Below are positions 1,001 to 7,842 of a stretch of DNA of 64,000 nucleotides, piece after piece. The translations under genes and the position numbers were made by a program. The notes under the pieces are model-generated. The model was given only the letters and a program-made list of their open reading frames with translations, made no database searches and was not told the DNA's origin. The stretch is from a virus. Numbering within the stretch: position 1 is the stretch's first letter; every line of letters begins with the position of its first letter. Where the stretch lies: the IMG/VR virus record IMGVR_UViG_3300020469_000008, positions 62,001 through 126,000 of that record. One strand, given 5' to 3'.

Positions 1001-3994
1001 ATGGCAGAAATAACATTTAAGTCAGCAGGAGTAAAAACTAGAGAAATTGACTTGTCACAACCGTCAAGGTTAGGACCGGTCGGTATTCCTGCAGGTATTA
1101 TTGGAACCGCACTTGAAGGTCCCGCTTTTGTACCACTTACTTTTGCAAATTATAATGATTTCATTACCACATATGGTGCTTCTGATGGTGAAAAATTTGG
1201 ACCTATAGCTGTAAGTCAGTGGCTTAAAAATGCACAAGCTGTGACATACATGAGAGTATTAGGATCCGGTGATGGGAAACAAAGAAATACAAACGGTACT
1301 GTTACAAACGCTGGATTTACAGTTGGAAATAGAATTGTTCAAGAAAGTGGCATAATAGGCGACAATGCACATGCAAAATCTGGTGTTGGTGCTGTTGAAG
1401 GTAGAACTTATTTTCTTGGTTGCTTTATGTCTGAGTCTAATGGCTCGACAATATTTAGTGACGCAGGAATTCAAGTTTCTGGGCAAAATAAAGCAGCACC
1501 TATTTTAAGAGGCGTTCTATTAGCACCAAGTGGTGTAGTTTTACATTTAAGTGCGTCAAGGACTCTAAACGGAAGCCAGGCACCACTTAAAACAAACACT
1601 GCCACATCTGCAGATAATGTAATAGTGGGTAGAGAAGGATCGATTACCGGTTCCTTGAATCTTGCAACGCAAGAGTTTGTTTTATTAATGAACGGATACA
1701 GTAATTCTGATGTTAGCAAAAAGACACATATAACAGCGTCATTTGATATGACATCACCAAATTACTTTGCAAATATTTTAAATACAAATCCTTTTAAAAT
1801 TGAAGAAGAAGGCCACTTACTGTATGGTCATTATGACATATATCCTGATTTAGCATCTGTTACTGGTAGCGGTGCACTAGCTGGAGGTGTTTATTCTAAT
1901 CCAGAAAAAACAAAAGAAGATATTGCATTGTTGTTAACATCATCTTTAGCTAGGAACGTAGGATCATCGACTATACCTAATTACGAAGACTTTGTAGATA
2001 GATTTTCTCACGCTGCATCGCCTTTTGTTATATCACAAAATTTTGCAGGAACTCCTAAAAATCTATTTAGAATTCATATGTTGTCTGCAGGTTCTGGTGT
2101 CGCAAATAAATTTAAGTTTTCAATTGAGAATATAAGAAAATCATCATCAACAAAAAATCTTTACGGTACTTTCGATCTACTTGTCAGGAGTTTTAGTGAT
2201 ACTGACGAAGAGCCAAGAGTAATCGAATCGTTCAGAGGCTTAAGTTTAGATCCAACTTCAGATCGATATATTGCAAGAGTTATTGGTGATCAAAACATAC
2301 AATACAATTTTGATGTTGCTGAAACAAGTCAAAAACTAATTGTTGAAGGTAATCACCCAGTTAGATCTAGGTTTATTCGGGTTGCGATTGCTAATGACGT
2401 TTCAACAGGTATTGAAGAAGCTACCGCTTTACCTATGGGTTTTAGAGGCCCTAATCACTTAGTAACAAGTGGTTCTTTACTTTCTAATGAAGTTGACAAT
2501 GCTTATGTCACGTCAACATCAGTACAATCTATAACCGAACCACCAATACCTTATAGAAAGACAGTTTCAGTAGGTACAGGTATACAGAAAAAATCAGACA
2601 GTCGATTATTTTGGGGAGTTAATACTGTAAGACAAACAAGTGCAACTCAACCAAACTTAGCTAGTTTGTTCAATAGATCTTTTAACACGTATTCAAAACA
2701 TTTTCCTACGCATAGAACTGATCAACCTAATTTTTCTGTCGGTAATAACCCAGGCACAGCTGATGCTGGAGGGGCCATTCTAGATTGTGACAGATTTAAT
2801 AATAATAAGTTTAGTTTAGAAAATATTCTTGTTCGAACAGGATCTGATGGTTTAGCTGATCCGGAACATTGGCTTAGCGCTTCATTTCTAAGAAGAAACA
2901 GTACTGTTGGTGACATTAATCACGTCACAAAAGTAAGAGGTTTTTCTGTTGACGATTTAGGTAAAGTAGCTAATATTAAGTTTGCTAAATTTACTTTCTT
3001 TGCACAAGGTGGTTCTGACGGTGTTAATATTTTCGATGAAGAAAAAAGCAAATTGTCAAACACAGCTGTTAAAAGAGAAATGGATGATTCATCATCATCA
3101 GGTGTAAATGACAATACAGTTGCTGCATATAGAAAAGCATTAAGTGTAATGAACTCCAAAGCTGACGTTGATATACAGGTACTCGCAGTACCGGGTATTA
3201 GACATGCATCAGTAACAGATTTTGCAATACAAAAAACTGAAGATCGTTTTGATGCAATCTACATTATGGACATTGAAGAGAGAGATCAAGTTAATACTGT
3301 TATAACTTCGTCTATACAAAAACCACATGTTTCAAACACAGTGACATCTTTTAAAAATAGAGCACTTGATACTTCATTTGCAGCTGCATACTTTCCAGAT
3401 GTTGTTGTGACTGATCCTTCTACACAAACATTAGTTCAAGTTCCACCATCAGTTGCAGTCTTAGGCGCTTACTCTTTAAACGATAGAGTTGCTCATCCTT
3501 GGTTTGCACCAGCTGGATTTACAAGAGGCGCGTTAAACACAGTTGAAATGCCTTCTGTAAAGTTAAATCGCACAAACCTTGATGATTTGTATGAAGCTGA
3601 TATAAATCCAATTGCAGAATTCCCAGGTGTTGGTATCACTATCTGGGGACAAAAAACACTGCAAGCTGACAATTCTGCACTAGATAGAATCAATGTTAGA
3701 AGACTTTTAATTGATGTTCGTAGAAAAATTAGAAATATTGCAAATTCACTTCTATTTGAACCTAATAGAGAAGAGACACTTGAGAGGTTTACGTCATTAG
3801 TTAACCCAATTCTACAAAGAATTCAAGAACAAAGTGGTGTTGATAGATTCAAGGCAGTGATTGACACATCAACGACAACACAGGCTGATGTAGAAAATAA
3901 CACTATTCGTGGTAAGATATTCTTACAACCTACACGTTCCGTTGAGTTTGTAGCACTAGATTTTGTAGTAACAAATGCTGGTTCAAATATTTAG
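1001..3994 (+). CDS. Tail sheath protein (large, 997 aa)
   Basis: Contractile tail sheath subunit, translated from ATG behind a GGAG box. The N-terminus has the family signature FKSAGVKTREIDLS followed by a PAGIIGTALEGPAF strand and a short YGASDG/FGPIAVSQWL block. The C-terminal 300 residues contain the VPGIRHASVTDF, HPWFAPAGFTRGAL and INVRRLLIDVRRKI landmarks of the conserved sheath core. At 997 residues it is much longer than T4 gp18 (659 residues). The excess is a Ser/Thr/Gly-rich middle region, roughly residues 90-680, probably decorating the outside of the sheath. It follows a paralogue with a shorter visible C-terminus, 22 bases away, and precedes the tube gene. Confidence 0.93.
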   Translation: MAEITFKSAGVKTREIDLSQPSRLGPVGIPAGIIGTALEGPAFVPLTFANYNDFITTYGASDGEKFGPIAVSQWLKNAQAVTYMRVLGSGDGKQRNTNGTVTNAGFTVGNRIVQESGIIGDNAHAKSGVGAVEGRTYFLGCFMSESNGSTIFSDAGIQVSGQNKAAPILRGVLLAPSGVVLHLSASRTLNGSQAPLKTNTATSADNVIVGREGSITGSLNLATQEFVLLMNGYSNSDVSKKTHITASFDMTSPNYFANILNTNPFKIEEEGHLLYGHYDIYPDLASVTGSGALAGGVYSNPEKTKEDIALLLTSSLARNVGSSTIPNYEDFVDRFSHAASPFVISQNFAGTPKNLFRIHMLSAGSGVANKFKFSIENIRKSSSTKNLYGTFDLLVRSFSDTDEEPRVIESFRGLSLDPTSDRYIARVIGDQNIQYNFDVAETSQKLIVEGNHPVRSRFIRVAIANDVSTGIEEATALPMGFRGPNHLVTSGSLLSNEVDNAYVTSTSVQSITEPPIPYRKTVSVGTGIQKKSDSRLFWGVNTVRQTSATQPNLASLFNRSFNTYSKHFPTHRTDQPNFSVGNNPGTADAGGAILDCDRFNNNKFSLENILVRTGSDGLADPEHWLSASFLRRNSTVGDINHVTKVRGFSVDDLGKVANIKFAKFTFFAQGGSDGVNIFDEEKSKLSNTAVKREMDDSSSSGVNDNTVAAYRKALSVMNSKADVDIQVLAVPGIRHASVTDFAIQKTEDRFDAIYIMDIEERDQVNTVITSSIQKPHVSNTVTSFKNRALDTSFAAAYFPDVVVTDPSTQTLVQVPPSVAVLGAYSLNDRVAHPWFAPAGFTRGALNTVEMPSVKLNRTNLDDLYEADINPIAEFPGVGITIWGQKTLQADNSALDRINVRRLLIDVRRKIRNIANSLLFEPNREETLERFTSLVNPILQRIQEQSGVDRFKAVIDTSTTTQADVENNTIRGKIFLQPTRSVEFVALDFVVTNAGSNI

Positions 3995-4029
3995 TGAATA
4001 GATATATAGTATAGATTAAGGAGATTAAA

Positions 4030-4521
4030 ATGGCAGAAACACTAGCAGTCACGGACATGTTACCAAATAAGTTTGAGCCGAAAAGAGGTTATCGATGGGT
4101 TTTAGCAATTGAAGGTATTGACTCGTTCTTAGTAACATCAACAAAACGCCCGGACGTATCGATGGGGACACAGGAAATAAAATTTATCAACAGCTATCGC
4201 ATGATATCAGACGGTAAGATTAAGTGGGGTAGCATTAGCGTCGACTTACATGATCCTATCGCACCATCTGGTGCACAGCAAGTAATGGAGTGGATTAGAA
4301 CACACTATGAGTCTGTTTCTGGCCGTGCAGGTTACGCTGATTTTTATAAGCGTGATATTCAGCTAAAAATGTTAGACCCAATCGGTACTGTTGTAGAATT
4401 ATGGGACATCAAAGGCGCAATCATTGCTAGTGCAAACTTTGGAAGCTTAAGTTATGATGGAACTGATTTAATGAAGATTAGTCTTACACTAGAAGTTGAC
4501 AATTGTGTTATGCAATTCTAA
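4030..4521 (+). CDS. Tail tube protein (gp19-like)
   Basis: 163-residue protein, the usual size for a T4 gp19-type tube subunit (163 residues in T4). It begins with a DMLPNKFEPKRGYRWVLAI block and continues with alternating strands (TKRPDVSM, EIKFINSYR, GKIKWGSISVDL, GTVVELWDIKGAII, LMKISLTLEVDNC), the pattern of the tube fold that stacks as hexamer rings inside the sheath. It is preceded by AAGGAGA, lies directly after the sheath gene, and is followed by a strong terminator, the standard sheath-tube order. The product forms the inner channel through which DNA and any internal proteins pass. Confidence 0.93.
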   Translation: MAETLAVTDMLPNKFEPKRGYRWVLAIEGIDSFLVTSTKRPDVSMGTQEIKFINSYRMISDGKIKWGSISVDLHDPIAPSGAQQVMEWIRTHYESVSGRAGYADFYKRDIQLKMLDPIGTVVELWDIKGAIIASANFGSLSYDGTDLMKISLTLEVDNCVMQF

Positions 4522-4546: not shown

Positions 4547-4577
4547 ACTCCTGTACAATATACAGGAGTTTTTTTTT
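4547..4577 (+). terminator. Rho-independent terminator after tail tube gene
   Basis: A perfect 9-bp stem ACTCCTGTA / TACAGGAGT (4547-4555 and 4561-4569) with a 5-base loop is followed by nine T residues. It separates the highly expressed sheath/tube genes from the chaperone/tape measure genes. The GGAG that serves the next gene starts immediately after the T tract. Confidence 0.9.
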
Positions 4578-4587
4578 GGAGAAATTT

Positions 4588-5388
4588 ATGGACAAAAATA
4601 TACCAACAACAAATGTAATGAAAGATACTTTTGGGTGGGAAGTACCACAAGAACTAGTACCAATACCTTCTGAAGGTAAAATATACGACCCGAACAGTAC
4701 ATTGTATGGTAAGAAAACAGTTCAAATCAAGGCAATGACTGCAAAGGAAGAAGATATTCTTACTAGTCAAGCTTTTTTAAAAGAAGGTACTGTAATTGAA
4801 AATCTTATTAAGTCTTGTCTAATTGACGATACTTTTGACGTCAATGATCTAATTAATGGCGACAGAAATGCGATACTAGTTTCAGTTAGAATAACTGGGT
4901 ATGGAGGAGAGTACGCTGTCGTTCACGGGTGTGCTAAATGTTCTTCAAAAAATAATGTTGATGTTGATTTAGGTTCTTTAGCGATTAAAAGATTACAAAT
5001 TGAACCGGTTGAAGAAGGCAAAAATTTATTTATTTATGAACTACCTGTGACAAAAAAGAATGTTGTATTTAAGTTTTTGACAGGTAAAGATGAGAAAGAT
5101 GAAGAAGTAAGAGTTAAAAGAATGGAAGCTCTTAACATTCAACAAGATAATTCAGTTACAAGATATTTGGAACAAATAATTGTTTCTGTTGATGGTGTTA
5201 CAGACAAAAATAAGATTCATCATTTTGTTAAAAATATGCCTGCATTAGATTCAAGAAAATTAAGGATGTATTCTAAAAGTCAAGAACCAGGTATTGACAT
5301 GTCTTGGAAATACAATTGTGAAAGTTGTGGCCAGTCAAATGAGTTCACAGTCCCAATAACCCCAGAGTTTTTTTGGCCCAGTACATAG
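4588..5388 (+). CDS. gp26-like baseplate hub / tail assembly chaperone protein
   Basis: 266-residue protein. I choose ATG 4588 because GGAG at 4578-4581 is properly spaced; the in-frame TTG at 4576 lies in the terminator T tract. The N-terminus (FGWEVPQELVPIPSEGKIY) and the body resemble the T4-type base plate family that includes gp26. A four-cysteine zinc site is formed by CAKC near residue 114 and CESC near residue 247. The position between tail tube and tape measure is the canonical place of tail assembly chaperones, which often continue by ribosomal frameshifting. Seven T residues near the 3' end allow such a shift into the following short frame. Confidence 0.75.
   Translation: MDKNIPTTNVMKDTFGWEVPQELVPIPSEGKIYDPNSTLYGKKTVQIKAMTAKEEDILTSQAFLKEGTVIENLIKSCLIDDTFDVNDLINGDRNAILVSVRITGYGGEYAVVHGCAKCSSKNNVDVDLGSLAIKRLQIEPVEEGKNLFIYELPVTKKNVVFKFLTGKDEKDEEVRVKRMEALNIQQDNSVTRYLEQIIVSVDGVTDKNKIHHFVKNMPALDSRKLRMYSKSQEPGIDMSWKYNCESCGQSNEFTVPITPEFFWPST
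5368..5374 (+). other. Candidate programmed frameshift site (T7 run)
   Basis: Seven consecutive T residues are read as TTT TTT T(GG) in the upstream gene, 12 bases before its stop codon. A -2 slip (TTT onto TTT at 5369-5371) or a +1 slip (onto 5372-5374) keeps perfect pairing with tRNA-Phe. Either one enters the frame that is open from 5360 and contains the small gene ending at 5632. A -1 slip would stop quickly at TAG 5414-5416. Gene order tube, ORF, overlapping ORF, tape measure matches tail chaperone genes known to use frameshifting (-1 in lambda, -2 in Mu). Confidence 0.55.
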
Positions 5389-5440
5389 TTGGAGAGAATC
5401 AATCCTAGAGGAATTTTTCGCCCTCCAACTCCACCTCAAT

Positions 5441-5632
5441 ATGTCTTACTCAGAGGTGCACCGATTACCAATACGTTATCGGCGCTGGTTCCTGCGTAGA
5501 TTGACGCGACACTTTGCGGAAAAGAATAAAATACACGAAGAAGCAGTTTCTAAATCAACGTCATCAAGAAGCAGTGAAGATCTAGACAACTTCAACAAGT
5601 TTCAGAGTCAAGTTAACAAGAAGTTTTCTTAG
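5441..5632 (+). CDS. Small tail assembly protein, probably the frameshift extension of the upstream gene
   Basis: From ATG 5441 the product is 63 residues, but there is no ribosome binding site in the CT-rich sequence just before it. The same frame is open upstream to 5360. Read through from the T run at 5368, it adds SWRESILEEFFALQLHLN before the MSYSEVHRLPIRYRRWF segment, which looks like continuous protein. I infer that it is mostly made as a fusion of about 347 residues with the gp26-like protein. The Arg/Trp-rich core and polar tail resemble the second half of tail chaperones that bind the tape measure. Independent initiation at 5441 remains possible. Confidence 0.6.
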   Translation: MSYSEVHRLPIRYRRWFLRRLTRHFAEKNKIHEEAVSKSTSSRSSEDLDNFNKFQSQVNKKFS

Positions 5633-5660: not shown

Positions 5661-7616
5661 ATGGCGACTGGTGATAATACGGTATTAGGCGAAGTAACTT
5701 TAGGTGACTTTAAAGCTGCTGTGAAAGAAGCTGTAAAAAGCGGAGTGTCAGCAGGTGGTACAACATCAGATTCATCTGATATCTCTACTGATTTTGACTC
5801 AGATTCTCCGAGCTCCGAAGACAATGAACAGGAAAGAGCTGATAAAATTGCGGGTTACAAGAACCAGTTTTCAGCAATACTTGCAGATGCCGGCGTTGCG
5901 ACAGACGATTTTATTGGAAGAACTGGTAAAACACTTAGTCAATTTGCTGAAGAAATGTACGATTATCAGTTAAAAAGAGCTAATGCTAATAAAAAAGAGC
6001 TTGAATACATTTATAACGCAAGAAAAGAGATTGGTGGTATATCTATAATTCCTGATGAGCAAGGACAAATCGCAGAAGGCATTACCAAAAAAGTAATTGA
6101 TCAAGCTGAAGCAATGTTTCTCCGCGGTACTGATGCTTATGAGTCAACCGTTAAGTTCCAAGGTGCCCTAGCTAATTTTAAAGTAAGCGATCTCTTTGAA
6201 AATGCTGAAGAGATGATGGGTGCATACACAGAGTTAATGGGTCGATTTGTGACAGACATGCCTGGGATGGCAGCAAAACTAACAGACGATATGGCAGAAA
6301 CTTTTTTAGGCTTTCAAAAATCTCTTTCACTTTCTGAACAAGACATGTCTGATATTATAAAAAGACAATATGCGTTTACAGGTGAGGCTAATGCTGATGT
6401 ATTAGGCCAGATCGCTAATGTATCTAAAGAACTAGCTGATCAAGTCGGAACTGGTGCAAACAAGCTTAAGAAAGAAATTGTGGCAATTATTACAGATGTC
6501 GATAGATTTGGTAACATTGGTGTAGATGCTGCTGGTAGAATCTCTGCTGCTTTGGCACAAACCGGTGTGGATTTTAACTCGTTTGTAAGACTTACAGACC
6601 AATTTATGAGATTTGATACAGCAGCTGATAAAATGGGTGAGTTGTCTGCATTATTCGGTATTCAGATGGATGCAATGGAAATGACTTACTTGGCTAACGA
6701 AGATCAAGAAGAGTTTCTATTTAGAATGCGCGAAGAAATTATGGATTCTGGAGTTGATGTTGAAAATATGTCAAATGCACGTGCCAGAGCTCTTGCTGGA
6801 CAATTAAATATGAACGTTTCACAAATGAAAATGTTTTTACGTGAAGGCGAGATGGCGGTTGATCAAGCGCAAATGGAAGCAACTACTGATGCAACTGCAG
6901 ATATGGACGGATTGACAACAGCCGCACAGAATTTTGGTGATGTTTTTGCTAGCTCTGCAAAGGATGCCACAACAGCTTTTAAAGAAGCCATAATTCCTTC
7001 AATTATGGCGTCAAAAGCAGGTCTACTGGAAGCTCACAAGGCAACAGCAGAACTCGGCAAAGAAATGAGATCATTTGACTTTGATGAAGAAGCAACTGAA
7101 GCTATGCAAAAATCAATCCAGGCTGCGACTGAAGTTAGAGTTGGCGCAATAAATGCACAGACTGAAGCGACGATTGTAATGATGAATAAATTAAACAAAT
7201 TTGCATCTGAAGGTGTTGTACTTGCAGGAAAAGCTATTAAAGCTGGTGCTAATTTTGGAAAAGACGGTATTTACACAGGTCTGTCTATGACACAAGGTTT
7301 AGGTGGTGATGCAGTTAGGGTAGGGCAAGGTAGAGAAGTCACCGGTGAGACAGAAGCGTTAAATAAAGCCTCAATGGCTAAGGTGGAACAGGATGCAGAA
7401 TTAGTAGCAGCAATGAAAACAGTTGCTGCGGGTGAAGAACTACGTATAAAACAAGGTCAAGAAGGAAAATATGGATTTGATCAGGACGCACTAAAGCAAA
7501 TATCGGAAGTACCTATCACGATTCAAATTGACATTGACGGCGACAAAGTGGCTGAAAAGACAGCTCAAGTCTACAGAAGAAATGGAAAAGAGTTAGTTGT
7601 AGTTCCTGTTAAATAA
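5661..7616 (+). CDS. Tail tape measure / baseplate hub protein (gp29-like role)
   Basis: 651-residue, strongly helical protein directly after the chaperone pair, the position of a tape measure. It has a Ser/Asp-rich linker near residues 35-60, followed by long Ala/Glu/Lys/Met-rich helices with few prolines (for example AKLTDDMAETFLGFQKSL and KMGELSALFGIQMDAMEMTY). A small beta segment, PITIQIDIDGDKVAEKTAQV, lies at the C-terminus. At about 0.15 nm per residue a tape of this size would set a tail near 100 nm, similar to T4 gp29 (590 residues). Its predicted roles are to set tail length and to leave the tube ahead of the DNA. The call rests on position, size and helix content. Confidence 0.7.
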   Translation: MATGDNTVLGEVTLGDFKAAVKEAVKSGVSAGGTTSDSSDISTDFDSDSPSSEDNEQERADKIAGYKNQFSAILADAGVATDDFIGRTGKTLSQFAEEMYDYQLKRANANKKELEYIYNARKEIGGISIIPDEQGQIAEGITKKVIDQAEAMFLRGTDAYESTVKFQGALANFKVSDLFENAEEMMGAYTELMGRFVTDMPGMAAKLTDDMAETFLGFQKSLSLSEQDMSDIIKRQYAFTGEANADVLGQIANVSKELADQVGTGANKLKKEIVAIITDVDRFGNIGVDAAGRISAALAQTGVDFNSFVRLTDQFMRFDTAADKMGELSALFGIQMDAMEMTYLANEDQEEFLFRMREEIMDSGVDVENMSNARARALAGQLNMNVSQMKMFLREGEMAVDQAQMEATTDATADMDGLTTAAQNFGDVFASSAKDATTAFKEAIIPSIMASKAGLLEAHKATAELGKEMRSFDFDEEATEAMQKSIQAATEVRVGAINAQTEATIVMMNKLNKFASEGVVLAGKAIKAGANFGKDGIYTGLSMTQGLGGDAVRVGQGREVTGETEALNKASMAKVEQDAELVAAMKTVAAGEELRIKQGQEGKYGFDQDALKQISEVPITIQIDIDGDKVAEKTAQVYRRNGKELVVVPVK

Positions 7617-7629
7617 ATGAGGTTTAAAG

Positions 7630-7842
7630 ATGAATAATACACACCAAACAATTAAAGATGAAATATACAGTTATATTACACAATTAGAATTAACCCCACA
7701 AGAACTTGATCATATCGATACTTATGTAAAAGATCTGCTGGTTTTTCTTGAACCTATAATAAACACTCAAGAAGCTGTAGTAAGTCAGCAAGAATCGTTT
7801 ACACAACTTAAAAAAATGATTTTAGACAATTTAGGAGTATAA
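7630..7842 (+). CDS. Small acidic helical protein in tail module
   Basis: 70 residues, ATG start, 13 bases after the tape measure gene and ending 1 base before the start of the next large gene. It is rich in Glu, Gln, Leu and Thr and reads as two or three helices (IKDEIYSYITQLELTPQEL, HIDTYVKDLLVFLEPI). It has no signal peptide or membrane segment. The tight spacing implies co-translation with tail genes and a role in tail assembly, but I do not recognise a family. Confidence 0.6.
   Translation: MNNTHQTIKDEIYSYITQLELTPQELDHIDTYVKDLLVFLEPIINTQEAVVSQQESFTQLKKMILDNLGV

Follow-up and report, generated by a model that had tools for sequence, protein, structure and literature searches.

A probable +1 ribosomal frameshift at the end of a T4 gp26-like gene, and its bearing on gp26 and gp51 as a probable tail assembly chaperone system

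The gp26-like gene that stands between the tail tube gene and the probable tape measure gene of the virus described here is quite probably, on the evidence of sequence comparison, the G gene of a tail assembly chaperone pair, decoded in two ways by means of a +1 slip of the ribosome. The window (the whole stretch of DNA that was analysed, 64,000 nucleotides in length) forms part of a 202-kb viral record, and the region of it that concerns this proposal is arranged as follows.

1001-3994: sheath-like gene, upstream of the tube gene in the tail gene run
4030..4521, + strand: tail tube protein (gp19-like; PHROG 4542 tail tube, 6e-24), directly 5' of G
4547..4577, + strand: terminator-like hairpin ACTCCTGTA-CAATA-TACAGGAGT followed by T8, read from the sequence, between the tube and G genes
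4588..5388, + strand: G, gp26-like, 266 aa, with ATG at 4588 and GGAG at 4577-4580; PF12322 (T4_baseplate)
5367, + strand: base preceding the T-run, here G (T in 0 of 111 representatives of the relatives, 46 expected)
5368..5379, + strand: candidate slip site TTT TTT TGG CCC (TTT YTT TGG CCT in relatives)
5375..5632, + strand: T domain (+1 frame), 85 codons followed by the stop at 5630-5632; predicted helix-turn-helix
5441..5632, + strand: apparent small ORF of 63 aa from ATG 5441, which splits the T domain in half
5661..7616, + strand: probable tape measure protein, 651 aa, assigned by position only, directly 3' of T
7630-7842: ORF of 70 aa after the tape measure gene, with no family match

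The G/T pair thus sits between tube and tape measure genes, the latter assigned by position: a tape measure protein is annotated at the equivalent place in SP-15, LIS04 and immuto_2-6A, and the candidate in the window gave no direct sequence match, including in a BLASTP comparison with the tape measure protein of immuto. The hairpin between the tube and G genes, which has an annotated terminator at the equivalent place in the record of Bacillus phage SP-15, may set the ratio of tube protein to chaperone.

The G gene ends GAG TTT TTT TGG CCC AGT ACA TAG (stop at 5386-5388), and its zero-frame product ends ...PEFFWPST*. The first-pass annotation of this DNA had pointed to the run of seven thymines at 5368-5374 ahead of that stop, and to an overlapping +1 (equivalently -2) frame open from 5360; the sequence confirms both, since that frame reads PQSFFGPVHSWRESILEEFFALQLHLNMSYSEVHRLPIRYRRWFLRRL... 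from 5360 and runs to the stop at 5630-5632 (its translation to 5632 being FFGPVHSWRESILEEFFALQLHLNMSYSEVHRLPIRYRRWFLRRL...). A -1 shift would read EFFLAQYIVGENQS* and so would stop quickly, as had also been said. The ATG at 5441 is, as claimed, without a Shine-Dalgarno sequence; it lies inside the conserved domain, with the conserved helix SWRESILEEFFALQLHLN 5' of it, and the small ORF that begins there is, judged from these features of the sequence, a gene-caller artefact. The T domain (approximately 85 aa; AlphaFold2 pLDDT 87) was found once per genome in seven genomes by a T-domain search, in the window with an E-value of 1.9e-22, while a Foldseek search of T in BFVD gave nothing significant.

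Relatives of this junction were collected through three protein-based scans of IMG/VR, together with annotated phages, and yielded 173 distinct junctions ending F[FL][WYF]P; these were reduced to 112 representatives at 70% protein identity, and to 111 once one contig with a duplicated G gene (L101, described below) was left out. Further scans seeded with the SP-15 and IC12 proteins returned only the seeds themselves. Such an alignment had been proposed as a check on the reading of this locus as a probable -2 or +1 frameshift in tail chaperone genes, and it supports that reading: rather than separate genes with clear ribosome binding sites and no conserved run, the relatives, highly diverged as they are, conserve the slippery run together with its frame relation: T lies in the +1 offset in 111 of 111 representatives.

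The conservation of the site, whose consensus is V TTT YTT TGG CCT, goes far beyond codon usage. The first Phe codon is TTT in 109 of 111 representatives (gene-body usage 0.76, p 2e-11); the second is TTT in all 103 cases in which it encodes Phe (p 3e-13), is otherwise CTT (seven) or CTA (one), and is never TTC. The Pro codon is CCT in 108 of 111 (usage 0.29, p 2e-54). At the codon in between, TGG occurs 102 times, TAC eight times and TTC once (n=111), so that Tyr, where it stands instead of Trp, is always encoded by TAC (8/8). The avoidance of T before the run has a p value of 2e-32 across the 111 representatives. These p values treat the representatives as independent, though the sequences are related; the pattern persists at 50% identity (24 clusters). 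Within the window T7 is not rare (53 matches against 99 expected), and TTTTTTTGGCC, which occurs once against 0.1 expected, is weak evidence by itself, so that the significance of the site lies in its conservation among relatives and not in its rarity.

The place of the frame change can be narrowed from the same alignment. The upstream stop of the T frame can be as near as one codon 5' of the T-run, so that the frame cannot change before the run; the G stop lies one to four codons past the Pro codon among the representatives, and this variable distance implies that the site does not include the stop codon. The codons CCT and TAC appear to be kept because TGGCCT and TACCCT encode protein in the +1 frame as well (GGC CTN and ACC CTN, with Leu and Thr as the constrained residues), which places the shift at the T-run, at or before TGG.

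The conserved site and frame relation, the hairpin statistics and the homology of T across classes are products of comparison, and from them we infer that a shift occurs, that it goes in the +1 direction, how efficient it is, and that the products act as chaperones. In the proposed mechanism, most ribosomes would end at the TAG at 5386 and release G (266 aa), and a fraction would slip +1 on the U-run to give a G-T fusion of approximately 347 aa. At the moment of slipping UUU would occupy the E site, the P site would hold Phe-tRNA paired with YUU, and the A-site codon, UGG or UAC, would be a slow one; in the window, the P-site Phe-tRNA would move from UUU 5371-5373 to UUU 5372-5374, and reading would resume at GGC 5375. 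In most relatives a small mRNA hairpin refolding behind the E site would drive the +1 movement and block -1. The absence of T before the run would also remove the -1 heptamer U UUU UUU, and that avoidance fits a +1 site that is guarded against -1 slipping. The strict use of TTT at codon 1 is attributed here to the requirement for a weak E site, although a -2 shift would need it too, and the CCC-A at 5377-5380 may give the phage of the window a second +1 chance.

The hairpin itself was assessed by per-sequence statistics. Across positions -24..0 the minimum free energy in relatives is -5.06 kcal/mol, as compared with -2.43 kcal/mol in synonymous codon shuffles, a difference of 2.63 (s.e.m. 0.25) that falls to 1.98 when local codon usage is applied and is absent at control positions. 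Strong stems are present in 59% of the sequences (24-26% of shuffles), end at -5..-2 and favour a tetraloop. RNAalifold gave no consensus for the upstream hairpin, because the stems lie in different registers, and in the window the per-sequence stem analysis found the hairpin absent. Downstream structure in these +1-class sequences is not above background, and a search of Rfam gave nothing meaningful. An upstream hairpin adjoining the slip site has been reported to increase +1 and attenuate -1 shifting on 70S ribosomes in vitro, at sites of the CUUUGA type and at A6G, and only in the absence of RF2 (PMC6321510); an inverse correlation between E-site codon stability and +1 shifting is cited in the same work.

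A sister group of phages appears to use the homologous position in the opposite direction. A scan seeded with the gp26 of Synechococcus phage Sf-FS3 gave 22 representatives, with junctions that are all NNT TTT TTC and with T in the -1 frame; the second codon is TTC in 22 of 22 (p 2e-12), and every one has T as the preceding base. The heptamer T TTT TTC is present in the isolates S-SM2, S-WAM1, P-HM1, Pelagibacter phage Mosig, Vibrio phage nt-1, Aeromonas phage Aeh1 and ACG-2014d, Caulobacter phage Cr30 has T TTT TTT, and RAS14, Atu_ph07, MIJ3 and IC12 look similar. In a dinucleotide-preserving test the -1 class displays a downstream hairpin (z -2.68 +/- 0.16; upstream z +0.33), whereas in the same test the +1 class displays an upstream one (z -0.96 +/- 0.15; downstream z -0.35). 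Most members of the -1 class have an ATG near the G stop, and some free T may thus arise there by re-initiation; in Aeh1 and ACG-2014d, T lacks a start codon.

The strongest rival explanation is programmed -2 slippage on U UUU UUU, which enters the same frame downstream but adds one Phe (the junction in the window would be ...PEFFFGPVHSWR) and is known in Mu and in the nsp2TF of arteriviruses (PMC5009743). The T7 of the window permits perfect P-site re-pairing two bases back, and both Phe codons are kept as TTT. The re-pairing is, however, not preserved in all members. Four sequences in two lineages (L018, L094 and L112; L175) have TTC TTT TGG/TAC, which breaks it and leaves that for +1 intact, and one (L083) has TTT CTA TTC. 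A -2 shift would also tolerate TTC as the second codon, which is never seen and which +1 slippage on that codon forbids; both TTT CTT TGG and TTC TTT TGG retain YTT-T, and TTT or CTT followed by T stands in the P site in 110 of 111 representatives. An upstream duplex, finally, should impede backward movement, and such duplexes are found in the +1 class and are absent from the -1 class. The substitution pattern and the upstream hairpin thus favour +1 among the two directions originally named: if a shift occurs, it is very likely +1, with -2 an unlikely direction and, as an account of the locus as a whole, equally unlikely.

Less probable still is a +1 shift at Pro, on CCC-A in the window and on CCU-N in the relatives, of the kind that Listeria phages PSA, A118 and A500 carry out at CCC sites (PMC5009743). 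Its attraction is that CCN is the best-conserved codon of the site, that CCC to CCA would re-pair perfectly in the window, and that two contigs (L348 and L349) have CCC-G and no T-run; yet CCU, which is the rule in relatives, re-pairs badly with CUN, the T-run would be left unexplained, and the conservation of CCT and TAC, explained by coding in the +1 frame, needs an earlier shift.

It is highly improbable that T is translated separately from a start of its own, for example through coupling to the G stop. In 48 of 111 +1-class representatives, the window included, none of the start codons ATG, GTG and TTG occurs in the T frame ahead of the T core, and a start with an SD-like 4-mer upstream is present in no more than 16 of 111; Aeh1 and ACG-2014d, within the -1 class, likewise offer no start. 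This explanation draws on Cygsa01 (L260) and LR756511 (L087), in which T looks like a gene of its own, with TGATG or TAATG as a stop-start overlap, and on the ATG just past the G stop in most cyanophages of the -1 class, but it leaves the conservation of the site unaccounted for. Transcriptional slippage on T7 is the least likely reading of all: loss of one U would yield exactly the T frame, but T7 is short for such slippage, TTTCTTT (two T3 tracts) replaces it in 11 of 173 distinct sites and in 7 of 111 representatives with the frame relation unchanged, and the other T7 runs among the 53 matches of the window would be exposed as well.

The two genes of T4 itself can be placed beside this system. 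Both gp26 and gp51 of T4 belong to PF12322 (8.8e-64 and 3.9e-52). T4 gp26 corresponds to G alone, with Phe-Phe codons TTC TTT and no heptamer, and gp51 has approximately 45 extra C-terminal residues that match cyanophage T in hhalign (score 59.8, prob 97.6). Cyanophage T in turn matches T of the window's clade (score 38-41, prob 93-95; null maximum 15.6). A direct match between window T and the gp51 C-terminus was discarded, its score of 15.7 being at the level of the null (G segments, maximum 15.6), so that the proposed relationship of the two is transitive, by way of cyanophage T only. On this comparison T4 gp51 appears to be an in-frame G-T fusion and gp26 to be G, with duplication in place of frameshifting. 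In a tree, the gp26 proteins of T4 and its close relatives form a sister clade (0.97) to their gp51 proteins, and the two cluster with the -1 phages Aeh1 and nt-1 (0.88); the +1 class and the SP-15 branch are united in one clade (0.99).

The contig that was left out of the alignment parallels T4. Its first G copy, nested in the +1 clade, reads TTC TTC TGG CCC and then stops, and its second has T in frame (E 2.4e-20); as its sequence is read here, L101 represents an independent duplication like that of T4, on a single metagenomic contig. In Enterobacter phage EC-F2 (L256), gp51-like and gp26-like genes stand in tandem on one strand and overlap by a few bases, an arrangement that fits a tandem-duplication origin.

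Taken together, these comparisons make it probable that gp26 and gp51 of T4-like phages represent one ancient G/GT system that is decoded in three ways: through a -1 slip (T TTT TTC with a downstream hairpin) or a +1 slip (V TTT YTT TGG with an upstream hairpin) at a homologous Phe-Phe position, and with no slip after duplication (in T4 and, independently, in L101). The side on which the hairpin lies would match the direction of the shift, as a natural counterpart of the bidirectional model built in vitro, and T4 would be derived, having lost shifting. Sullivan et al. (2010, PMC3037559) had already described cyanophage gp51 as missing the first ~200 residues while being similar to T4 gp51 at the C-terminal end, and had reported no gp51 in Aeh1. 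Both observations fit this reading of T: the short gp51 (~60 aa) of cyanophages and marine vibriophages is the T domain beside gp26, and Aeh1 does carry T, unannotated.

The assignment of G itself rests on family and predicted fold. G matches PF12322 with an E-value of 3.3e-16 (60.1 bits against a gathering cut-off of 24.5) and the baseplate hub family PHROG 150 at 9e-20, while PDB sequence searches with G and gp51 gave no relative. The structures of G and T were modelled separately with AlphaFold2, that of G with a mean pLDDT of 94. A Foldseek search of G in the PDB gave no significant hit; when VIA-align 2 was run on the chains ranked highest by Foldseek (669 aligned), the HK97 tail assembly chaperone (2ob9), at rank 44 in the Foldseek list, was re-ranked first with Z 6.0, followed by 3fgx (RBSTP2171, 5.9) and 3klu (YqbN, 5.8), with the next row at 2.9; a Z of ~6 is middling, below 8. 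The latter two are members of the XkdN-like tail-chaperone group. The N-terminal part of G is the portion that best matches the HK97 chaperone fold in the PDB, and its C-terminal part is zinc-ribbon-like. This predicted chaperone-like fold supports, as distinct from proving, a tail-chaperone role for G, and some recent records already name T4 gp26 a chaperone (for example, 'tape measure protein assembly chaperone' in Acinetobacter phage Stupor). In lambda, G acts on the tape measure protein and T on the tube (PMC5009743); by analogy, G of the gp26-like system would form a coat around the tape measure protein, and the G-T fusion would recruit tube subunits. The link between the T4 baseplate family and the classical chaperone system, which the first-pass annotation had put forward as an inference, is thereby supported by gene order, by the predicted fold of G and by the reading of T4 gp26 and gp51 as G and G-T.

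Several known systems can be set against this one. Frameshifting in tail chaperone genes is, as a general kind, already known. G/GT pairs of the lambda type (Xu, Hendrix and Duda 2004, cited in PMC5009743) likewise lie between tube and tape measure genes, with T in an overlapping frame and with a slip site at the 3' end of G that gives a short and a long product; unlike in those, G of the window is a PF12322 (T4 gp26) protein with a zinc-ribbon-like C-terminal part, and the shift proposed is +1, with an upstream hairpin in relatives. T4 has two genes, gp26 (baseplate hub) and gp51 (hub assembly catalyst), and no slip site. In cyanophages and vibriophages, by contrast, T (as gp51) is in the -1 frame with a downstream hairpin and mostly with an ATG. 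The +1 site of prfB (RF2), CUU UGA C, likewise combines YUU in the P site, a following U and a weak E site, and the relatives have an upstream duplex there too; the A site here holds a sense codon, UGG or UAC, which is a weaker trigger than the stop codon UGA, and in place of the internal Shine-Dalgarno sequence ~3 nt upstream in prfB the relatives have a hairpin and the window has neither. Phage Mu, with its -2 shift, arrives at the same frame in the same kind of gene pair, whereas the substitutions and the upstream hairpin speak for +1 here.

A search of the open literature, with most subscription journals outside its scope, gave no report of frameshifting in the gp26 family; within that literature the proposed frameshift, the opposite directions with matching hairpin sides, and the reading of T4 gp26 and gp51 as G and G-T are new. 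G-T frameshifting has been described as widely conserved 'except T4' (PMC5009743). If the proposal is true, T4 no longer stands as the exception, gp26 and gp51 gain a concrete role as tape-measure chaperones, and the fact that cyanophage gp51 is four-fifths shorter than that of T4 is explained. Two sister sets of natural slip sites, opposite in direction and homologous in position, would also offer evolved pairs on which to test what determines the direction of a shift. The proposal further predicts a missed or truncated gene in many marine phage genomes, for example S-WAM1, ACG-2014d, Aeh1, immuto, SP-15 and LIS04.

Some further observations concern individual sequences. Existing annotations miss the T frame, or truncate T at an internal ATG, in L082, L086, L089, L351, L357 and L358. 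In phages of Gram-positive hosts (SP-15, LIS04 and GXN1; L086, L089 and L084) T is in the +1 frame, and the Phe-Phe codons are followed by a common NCC CGA TTY instead of TGG CCT, where the slow CGA codon may matter. The near-identical contigs L348 and L349 (near 3755-4099) also have T in the +1 frame, with CCC-G as the sole good +1 re-pairing near the junction, and their gp26-like protein has a long N-terminal extension. Within the window, the ORF at 67-978 is similar in sequence to the C-terminal portion of the sheath-like protein encoded at 1001-3994 (RGAL...LDRVNVRRML), which suggests two tandem sheath paralogues, one of them cut by the edge of the window.
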